Part shown: in pieces, positions 24,085 through 27,009 of the stretch
Numbering within the stretch: the first letter of the stretch is position 1
Layout: each line of letters starts with the position of its first letter
Notes under the pieces: model-generated
Told to the model about the DNA's origin: nothing
The model's input: only the letters and a program-made list of their open reading frames with translations
The model's database searches: none
From: Nitrospirota bacterium
GTDB taxonomy: Bacteria > Nitrospirota > Nitrospiria > SBBL01 > JAADHI01
Assembly: GCA_029261155.1 (NCBI GenBank)
Contig: JAJDBW010000090.1
Location: 1 to 64,000, forward strand
Direction of reading: 5' to 3'
Length of the DNA: 64,000 bases
Position numbers and translations under genes: made by a program

Positions 24085-26706
24085 TTATTCGATCAGAATC
24101 CCTTCCGAATACTTCGCGTTTTCGACAACCGGTATATCACCCATGCTGTGCTCCACAAAATCGGGCACGGACGCGAGATCAACACTGTCTGCCACTGTAA
24201 TGTCGAGCGTACCGGGATCGGCCACCGGATTCAAGAACTGACTGATTTCAAGCGGTTTAATCAGATAGCTCAAGGTCGAATCTTGCGCATCGCTGACCTG
24301 TGTACCCGCCGGGATGTTGATGATTTTGTTCGAAATCGTCGTGCTCATTACAAATTCTTTCTTTCTGAGCTCTTCGAACAAATCGGGCAGGCCGTGCATC
24401 CAACCATCATACTGCAAGGAAAGCGTTTTGCTGTCTCCCGCGTTGTTGGTCAAGGTCACCGGTTGCAACTGGATGGGATCGCTTAGCATGACGTAGGCAC
24501 CGTCTCCATCGACCAGGTATGTGACCTTTCCCCAGTCCTCCCCTTCTCGCGGATAATCCCAATTGTATTGCGTCCCGCTTGCGACGCCATTGACATAGGC
24601 CTCCAAGCCCCACTGCCCATTGGTCGAGACAGCGCCGACCGTGACGCCGGTATTCGGCTGGCCATTGACATCACTATCGTTATCACCGATGGTCGCATAC
24701 ACCAGCTTCATAAAAGTGGCGCTGTTCGAATCGGTGTCGAAGGTGTAGGTGGAATCGTTGTCAGGATTCCACGACGATTTAAACACCGTGTTGGCCGGAA
24801 CGAAGGTCGCCACATTCAAGGGATTGGCCACCGTCTGGATTTCAAGTTTCACGGTCGTGCCACTATTGTCTCTCTTGACGATATAGTTGGTGCCGCGGCT
24901 GTTAATATACAACTCCTCATTTAAGGGGAGCGTATAGGGCTTGTCGCCATTCGGATCGAATTCCGGTGTCCAGGTGCGTTGATCGAAATTGGAAAGTTTC
25001 TTTTCCACCCAGCCTGTCCCGTTATATTCGATATAAATCGAACCGCCGATATTCACCCACATGTCATCCATGTCGCTCGGCGTATAGAGCTGCGCCGGAC
25101 TGGCCATGGTCGTTTGACCTGTTTGCTGATTCATCTCCGCCACGTAGAAACCTGCGACGCTTCCACCGGCCGCAGTCGCCGCAGCATTCGTGGAAATGTA
25201 AACATAGTCAATCGGTGCGCCTTGTCCGCCGTTGGCACTTTGATCCCAGCGGTTCATGTTGACGAATTTCCGATTGTTTTCCGAATCGGTTTCCAGCAAT
25301 GGAAGATTAGGCGTGAAATCCTCCGTACTCTCGCAGGTCTGTCCGCTTTGTCCCCAGGAAGGATTCACACAAGCATCCCATCGGGAGTTGGAGGCGCTAT
25401 AGCGAATATTGTAGTTTTTGTTGATCCAAGTTTCCACCGGAATACTGAGTACGTCATTCAGGCTGCCATCGACGGTCGATCGTTTCACCAAGGTCCCGGA
25501 AAAGGGCGATGAAACCGTGTAGGTCAGTGCAGTGGTATCCGCACCGTGGTCGTCACGGGTAACAACGGTCCCTGCTGCAACGCCGCCGCCTTCAGGTCCG
25601 CCACCGCCCCAGAGCTGATGACGCCCTTGCCAGGCCCCATAATAGGCGTAGTTCCGGAAGCCATTGCTGTCAGTGAAAAAGACTGGAAAACCGAAGGATT
25701 TCGTCTTAAACACATTCGCACCCGTTGTGGCATCAAACATACCGTAGCGATGGGTCATTTCGGTCACATCGGCTCTGTCCTTAAAAGTCGGGTTGGCATC
25801 CCCCGCCTTTTGAACAGCCATGTGGCCCGCATCGTAGGCATATTTCGCTTCGACAATCGAGGGCTGACAGGGATGTTCTGTGCAGCTCTCCCAATCGGGG
25901 AACGACACCTTGCCGAAGCCGCTCGTCGCGGATTTATTGAGGATCGCCTTGACTTCCATAATGAAGTCACTGCCGCCTCCACCTTCGCCGCCGCCTTCGC
26001 CGCGTTCCGGGAAACGTTCGTGCAATTTAATAATGGATTCTCCATTGGGGCCGATCTCCGCCGATGCGGCAAAAAAATCGGTCACGGCACCCGCTTCACC
26101 ATCACCAAATTTTACATTCAAGGTCCAAGCACCATAGTCAGTGTACGAACCATCCGCAGCCTGCGTCGCCGCCGTTGTGATCTTGAATTCAGCCTTAATG
26201 AGTTCTTTCTGGCCGCCTTCCACTTCCTCTATCCATGCCCGTGCCCTTGTGACATTTTGGCCATTTTCGACGATGATGTCGGATTGGACAATCCAGGGCT
26301 GAAGGGTTTTAGTTTCGATTCCATTTTGCTCGTCTTGCCAAGCCACCATGACTTTGTAGGCACCTTGTCCGATATTACCCTCATCGGCATAGTGGGTCTG
26401 CCCTAAAGCGCCCAAGACCTGCTCGATGATCTCGAACTGTTCCAGGGTATGCTCGTTGACGAACTTTTGTGTCGTTGCCTTACTGTAGTCGGTGTTGGGG
26501 TCTGTTGCGGCTTTAAGCCCCATGAGCATTGATTTCATGCCCACTTTAGAGGATGTGCCGCTTTGATTCGTCGGAATCGCCGAAATCTCAGTCGGTAAAC
26601 TGAGACCTGTGGTGGGTGTTGTACTTGTCGTTGAACTACCGCCGCCGCTGCTACACGCCGCGAGGCCGAATAAGAATAGGGTCGATAATACTGTTGCCTT
26701 CTTCAT
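24085..26706 (-). CDS. Large surface lipoprotein under riboswitch-like control
   Basis: This 873-residue protein starts with a lipoprotein signal peptide (MKKATVLSTLFLFGLAAC, lipobox Cys at 18), followed by a Ser/Thr/Gly-rich linker. The remainder is beta-rich with several Asp/Asn-Gly turns and a Gly-Glu low-complexity segment near 240. I recognise no catalytic domain. The frame, a GGGAGAG ribosome site and an immediate 3' terminator make it a solid gene. It is monocistronic, preceded by a c-di-GMP-I riboswitch-like leader with its own terminator, which suggests expression is tied to the motile/sessile switch. An adhesin or matrix protein is a reasonable guess, not shown by any domain. Confidence 0.8.
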   Translation of the reverse strand: MKKATVLSTLFLFGLAACSSGGGSSTTSTTPTTGLSLPTEISAIPTNQSGTSSKVGMKSMLMGLKAATDPNTDYSKATTQKFVNEHTLEQFEIIEQVLGALGQTHYADEGNIGQGAYKVMVAWQDEQNGIETKTLQPWIVQSDIIVENGQNVTRARAWIEEVEGGQKELIKAEFKITTAATQAADGSYTDYGAWTLNVKFGDGEAGAVTDFFAASAEIGPNGESIIKLHERFPERGEGGGEGGGGSDFIMEVKAILNKSATSGFGKVSFPDWESCTEHPCQPSIVEAKYAYDAGHMAVQKAGDANPTFKDRADVTEMTHRYGMFDATTGANVFKTKSFGFPVFFTDSNGFRNYAYYGAWQGRHQLWGGGGPEGGGVAAGTVVTRDDHGADTTALTYTVSSPFSGTLVKRSTVDGSLNDVLSIPVETWINKNYNIRYSASNSRWDACVNPSWGQSGQTCESTEDFTPNLPLLETDSENNRKFVNMNRWDQSANGGQGAPIDYVYISTNAAATAAGGSVAGFYVAEMNQQTGQTTMASPAQLYTPSDMDDMWVNIGGSIYIEYNGTGWVEKKLSNFDQRTWTPEFDPNGDKPYTLPLNEELYINSRGTNYIVKRDNSGTTVKLEIQTVANPLNVATFVPANTVFKSSWNPDNDSTYTFDTDSNSATFMKLVYATIGDNDSDVNGQPNTGVTVGAVSTNGQWGLEAYVNGVASGTQYNWDYPREGEDWGKVTYLVDGDGAYVMLSDPIQLQPVTLTNNAGDSKTLSLQYDGWMHGLPDLFEELRKKEFVMSTTISNKIINIPAGTQVSDAQDSTLSYLIKPLEISQFLNPVADPGTLDITVADSVDLASVPDFVEHSMGDIPVVENAKYSEGILIE

Positions 26707-26809
26707 TCTACTCTCCCTTTTAGATGAGGCAGGTCCGAGGCTGCCTTCTTGAGAGCTATTTTTTTCGGGTTATAAAGACATCATGATTTGACTTGCACCC
26801 AATAAAAAA

Positions 26810-26833
26810 GCCCATTTCATTGATGAAATGGGC
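26810..26833 (-). terminator. Terminator between riboswitch-like aptamer and lipoprotein gene
   Basis: GCCCATTTCAT (26810-26820) pairs with ATGAAATGGGC (26823-26833), and on the minus strand six T follow. It lies between the aptamer and the start codon, as expected of an expression platform that works by transcription termination. Confidence 0.85.
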
Positions 26834-26859
26834 CAACCTTCACACAGACTCGTATTGTA

Positions 26860-26975
26860 TAATTACCGCGTCTATCCTTAGGAGGCCCAACCAGCATGCC
26901 TTGCGATACCGATCGCAAAAGCGAAGCTTTGTGACTTTGCGTCCCGGTCTTTCGACCGGTTTGCCGTTTCTGGAC
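26860..26975 (-). promoter_or_regulatory. c-di-GMP-I (GEMM) riboswitch-like aptamer
   Basis: On the minus strand GGCAAACC (26965-26958) is followed by a six-pair stem with a GAAA tetraloop and then GGGACGCAAAG (ending at 26935). This is the diagnostic GEMM-I core. CCTAAG near 26885-26877, matching one half of the 11-nt GAAA-tetraloop receptor, and GATAGAC closing on AAAGTC support the second helix. The outer P1 helix is not obvious, and the second helix has inserted hairpins, so the 3' boundary is approximate. A fold search against RF01051 would settle it. Confidence 0.7.
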
Positions 26976-26981
26976 ATTTAA

Positions 26982-27009
26982 AAGATAACAAATTTACGGG
27001 GCTTGTCAA
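26982..27009 (-). promoter_or_regulatory. Promoter for the riboswitch-like leader
   Basis: Read on the minus strand, TTGACA (27009-27004) and TATCTT (26987-26982) are separated by 16 bp. The predicted start near 26975 is just upstream of the aptamer core. Confidence 0.65.

Follow-up and report, generated by a model that had tools for sequence, protein, structure and literature searches.

A conserved GEMM-I riboswitch lies upstream of a predicted lipoprotein gene in the genome of a Nitrospirota bacterium. The leader is a genuine member of a known riboswitch class, and it is probably a transcriptional c-di-GMP-I riboswitch that works as an OFF switch. Four things about it are new: the lipoprotein family that is under riboswitch control is undescribed, the P3 stem of the aptamer has an unusual conserved loop, the predicted polarity is OFF, and the specificity base varies naturally among the leaders. 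Both the leader and the gene are on the minus strand of the window, by which we mean the whole stretch of DNA that we analyzed (64,000 nucleotides). The features are listed in the table.

Table. Features of the lipoprotein gene and its leader, with positions in the window
Feature	Position	Strand	Basis
Sigma-70-type promoter, TTGACA - 16 nt - TATCTT	26982..27009	-	10/12 matches to pattern
GEMM-I (c-di-GMP-I) aptamer, RF01051	26878..26975	-	Covariance-model score and 18-sequence alignment
G at binding-pocket position 20 (Vc2 numbering)	26965	-	Alignment of leaders
P2 with GAAA tetraloop	26939..26964	-	Alignment A2, columns 19-44
P3 with non-standard conserved internal loop GCUUCG/CAUGC at the usual GAAA-receptor site	26885..26935	-	Invariant GCUUC and AUGC columns
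A strand, UGGGCC: belongs to P3 when the aptamer is formed and otherwise gives the 5' half of the antiterminator	26884..26889	-	Folding and pair covariation
C equivalent to C92 of Vc2 and C75 of pilM	26882	-	Invariant column C101 of A2
T strand, GGCCCA: joins the A strand in the antiterminator, or serves as the terminator's 5' arm	26829..26834	-	Folding and pair covariation
Intrinsic terminator, GGCCCAUUUCA-UCAA-UGAAAUGGGCU and U tract	26804..26834	-	Conserved in 16 orthologous leaders
Predicted lipoprotein, 873 aa, lipobox LAAC, invariant Cys18, beta-rich	24085..26706	-	ORF and homologue comparison

The preliminary description of this DNA had proposed the GEMM-I core, a proposal that would fall if the RF01051 covariance model gave no match above its threshold. 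The match has 58.2 bits, which is 23 bits above the gathering score of 35 (E = 8.4e-9 for a search of the entire window with 4227 families), and it is the sole Rfam match within the 64-kb window. The fold is well supported by comparison across leaders. Among 18 aligned leaders, all 306 cells for the 17 pairs of P2 and P3 are paired (100%), and 6 of these 17 pairs are altered on both sides. With shifted registers, only 14–51% of cells pair. The outer helix P1, which had been thought unclear, is a short helix in the window (UGUCC/GGAUA, about 26976–26972 with 26877–26873, –5.8 kcal/mol), and each of the 18 aligned leaders allows a P1 to be drawn.

The usual GAAA receptor in P3 is of the CCUAAG/UAUGG type; its canonical 11-nt form is common and not obligatory. 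In these leaders the conserved, non-canonical GCUUCG/CAUGC loop stands at that site instead, so docking of the GAAA loop of P2 is only putative. The replacement of the usual receptor by this loop also explains why half of a tetraloop-receptor motif had been noticed. Otherwise, the leader resembles other RF01051 riboswitches in its fold, in the GAAA loop of P2, in its equivalents of G20, A47 (at 26938), and C92, and in its place between a promoter and a gene. It differs from them in the P3 loop and in controlling an undescribed lipoprotein. For these positions we use the numbering of Vc2 and pilM, which we take to apply to these leaders on the basis of the Vc2 and pilM sequences and the conserved motifs. 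C92 of Vc2, or C75 of pilM, forms a Watson-Crick pair with the ligand (PMC9262584).

The aptamer and the lipoprotein gene stay together across related genomes. We found homologues of the lipoprotein in 25 of the 58 genomes searched (including the window's own); the named relatives include Candidatus Manganitrophaceae and Ca. Manganitrophus. Besides the window, we scanned 21 homologous loci from the same class, and 20 of them have a GEMM-I aptamer upstream of the gene (19 of the first 20 loci, plus L032). The only locus that lacks the aptamer, L036, is the most divergent of the first 20. A single branch of the maximum-likelihood tree (SH-aLRT 88) separates the 19 proteins whose genes have the leader from all others, and the simplest history is therefore that the aptamer was gained once and then retained. 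The pairing of the aptamer with the lipoprotein is not accidental, and the link between them that had been proposed from the window extends to nearly all of the in-class loci scanned. More broadly, the lipoprotein family is found across the Nitrospirota and in some Gammaproteobacteria and Desulfobacterota. We did not find a GEMM aptamer in the flanks that we searched for homologues from other classes of Nitrospirota, Gammaproteobacteria, Desulfobacterota, or Anaeromyxobacter.

We also searched 396 Nitrospirota genomes for this subtype of aptamer, with a pattern that was built from these same leaders, so that the result maps occurrence and is no independent test. There were 14 sites in 12 genomes; 12 of the sites precede the lipoprotein and two precede other genes. 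Genome G026 has an aptamer of the same subtype, with A at position 20, before a gene for a FIST-domain protein (L140, contig C4, near 12813).

The preliminary description had placed the promoter and the intrinsic terminator where we find them. The stem of the terminator has 11 pairs (26834–26809), with the T tract after it. Shuffles of the region give 0.6 promoter-like sites and 0.8 terminator-like sites by chance. Because the bare patterns are near the chance level, the case for both elements rests on conservation among the orthologues: TTGACA and TAnCTT-like boxes recur with the same spacing in most of the orthologous leaders, and the terminator is retained as given in the table. The expression platform is not universal, since this terminator is absent from two leaders that retain the aptamer (L031 and L035).

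Which ligand does the aptamer bind? Position 20 influences the recognition of c-di-GMP or cGAMP (G20A, PMC6274999; also PMC9262584), and A at this position marks GEMM-Ib; the window has G. Since the equivalents of A47 and C92 are standard as well, we predict that the ligand in this organism is c-di-GMP. The assignment had first been based on the GEMM-I core, which is sound, and G20 gives it a further basis, as it is predicted to favor c-di-GMP over cGAMP in this genome.

It is unlikely that the aptamer is of the GEMM-Ib type and senses 3',3'-cGAMP, with the lipoprotein in a cGAMP regulon. The pilM and other GEMM-Ib cGAMP riboswitches of Geobacter do have a homologous aptamer, and three orthologous leaders (L026, L028, and L031) share their A20, but the window has G20 with standard counterparts of A47 and C92. 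(One more orthologous leader, L024, has C at position 20.) The other argument for cGAMP comes from possible synthases. A serine at the Hypr specificity position of GGDEF domains (PMC6456294) was the basis of a search pattern, which matched in 18 of 19 genomes; the exception, G030, is 82% complete. When translated, the matches are mostly GGDEF proteins of that kind, and two GAF-GGDEF proteins with the serine are in the window's own genome. Against this, that genome has 24 sites of the canonical type (NDxxGHxxGD) versus 2 of the serine type. Of the GAF-GGDEF proteins with the Hypr serine, that at L109 (genome G000, contig C10, near 38441) has the motif NDRHGHLAGS and that at L096 (contig C4, near 15084) has NDKYGHLVGS, each followed by RYGGDEF.

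Candidate cGAMP synthases are thus predicted to be widespread in these Nitrospirota genomes, and given the Hypr-serine proteins, these bacteria may produce both c-di-GMP and cGAMP. We consider this to be a lead and not a result. We found no report of cGAMP signalling in Nitrospirota in the literature that we searched.

On the protein tree, the specificity base must have changed at least four times. Genome G034 has a second copy of the leader (L151, about 1440–1680) that is nearly identical to L026 from the promoter through the terminator. The two copies differ at position 20, with A in L026 and G in the second copy, and they precede two different lipoprotein genes, as the gene after the second copy is unrelated. 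We tentatively suggest, as a possibility that we do not favor, that the leader family is a natural ligand-switching panel, in part between c-di-GMP and cGAMP, and that G034 uses two messengers to control two lipoproteins; this would imply that a Hypr/cGAMP pathway operates in Nitrospirota.

The preliminary description had noted a complete ON/OFF switch layout. The switch layout is indeed present; the polarity had been left open, and the pairing predicts OFF. Of the 16 leaders that have this terminator, 14 allow at least 7–8 bp between its 5' arm and the aptamer strand beside the ligand-binding C. If the RNA is cut just past the T strand, the minimum-free-energy fold in all 16 is a long antiterminator hairpin that joins UGGGCYNC of the aptamer to that arm. 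The helix between the A and T strands has 8 consecutive pairs in most leaders. Across 13 distinct sequences, 96.2% of its cells are paired and 7 cells are changed on both sides; none of 500 shuffles equaled either value, though the shuffles take no account of relatedness. Sliding the registers by 1 to 3 lowers the pairing to 26–47%. For the window's RNA before the terminator is complete, the antiterminator fold has –56.4 kcal/mol versus –38.3 kcal/mol for the forced aptamer fold, in calculations that leave out the ligand, tertiary contacts, and kinetics. When the aptamer is forced in the full-length RNA, the complete terminator is present.

Because an aptamer strand has an alternative pairing with the terminator arm, the switch most likely turns the lipoprotein gene off at high c-di-GMP, a polarity that follows from the logic of the pairing. 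At low c-di-GMP, the A strand of the nascent RNA, which adjoins the ligand-contacting C, would pair with the T strand. This would break both the aptamer and the stem of the terminator, and RNA polymerase would read into the lipoprotein gene. When c-di-GMP is abundant, the ligand-bound aptamer would keep the A strand in P3, GGCCCA would join its terminator partner, and transcription would end near 26804.

This layout is that of Cd1 from Clostridioides difficile, an OFF switch whose terminator forms from elements T and H and whose antiterminator forms from T, A, and H (PMC9262584). As in Cd1, the terminator hairpin is self-contained and has no strand in common with the aptamer, and the antiterminator takes the 3' strand of the aptamer beside the ligand-binding C. 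Unlike in Cd1, which governs flagellar genes, the antiterminator here is a compact A:T helix of 6–8 bp plus a variable hairpin.

ON switches are documented in this class (PMC9262584), and a GEMM-I leader on another contig of the same genome has the ON layout (see below), so we considered whether ligand binding might prevent termination, as it does in the pilM leader. In pilM, an aptamer strand is within the terminator. The self-contained terminator and the conserved, covarying competitor, which joins an aptamer strand to the terminator arm, make an ON switch improbable here.

We also give little credence to the idea that the aptamer has lost its switching function in this genome, which would make the leader a relic or an attenuator that acts constitutively. 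The A:T helix of the window is weaker than in most of its relatives (6 contiguous pairs, a small internal loop, and two more pairs), its P1 is weaker than in many of them, and its aptamer scores below those of several orthologues. Yet all of the pairs in P2 and P3 and the invariant pocket bases are intact, and the promoter, the terminator, and the spacing are retained.

Finally, we considered whether the leader belongs to the variant class c-di-GMP-I-GGC (RF03167) and perhaps binds another ligand. Its model is the best-scoring one for several orthologous leaders, and several exceed its threshold (probably because of similar P2 and P3 lengths). We dropped this reading as extremely unlikely: with 50.4 bits the window falls short of the gathering score of 59, it has A rather than the defining G in place of A47, and the GCGAAG consensus is in none of the lipoprotein leaders, which have CAAAG instead.

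The window's genome contains other GEMM-I leaders. A leader of this type precedes a spore-coat-U (Csu-type) pilus operon (L011:2563-2651, contig C29), and another precedes a gene for a PilZ-domain protein (L013:3386-3488, contig C84), with a score of 33.2 bits that is below the threshold. We predict that these leaders give a small c-di-GMP regulon in this genome. In genome G019, an orthologue of the lipoprotein gene is under a different GEMM-I subtype (L025:1223-1321, 37.0 bits) that is nearer to the C29 and C84 leaders, as if its leader had been replaced. An aptamer on contig C88 (L010:414-488) has A at position 20, as in the cGAMP type, and an OFF-looking layout; the gene after it resembles cheX by eye and is a truncated ORF without a Pfam match.

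Three more leaders, on contigs C32, C37, and C61 (L008:35-109, L009:35-109, and L012:4264-4337), are closely similar, and those on C32 and C37 are almost identical. Two of the three are at contig ends, which suggests that these leaders belong to a repeated element. In the C61 leader, A47 is replaced by G, which gives the GCGAAG of the RF03167 consensus. The 3' strand of its aptamer is inside its terminator, which is a pilM-like ON layout and the opposite of the lipoprotein leader, so two designs can be distinguished in this genome.

The lipoprotein had been described as giant, which overstates its 873 residues, and as lacking any known domain, which holds. Scans of the window's protein and 20 homologues against Pfam and NCBIfam gave no family match for the window's protein, and a search against the sequences of solved structures (PDB) gave no significant match. 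A model of the protein has a mean pLDDT of 78.7 and is mostly beta strands; Foldseek found no significant fold match for it in PDB or among viral models. Because the gene has no conserved neighbors beyond close relatives, it appears to be transcribed as a unit of its own. Relatives of the protein are encoded in no plasmid record. From the lipobox and a serine/threonine-rich linker only, we infer an outer-membrane or surface location and role.

The riboswitch gives a testable handle on this unnamed family of lipoproteins: in one clade, c-di-GMP should shut the gene off. If the OFF reading is true, the lipoprotein is made when c-di-GMP is low, which would be the motile or dispersing state. The leaders with G, A, or C at the specificity base on otherwise similar RNAs make it possible to test directly how ligand specificity evolved. 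They also point to possible cGAMP signalling in the Nitrospirota.
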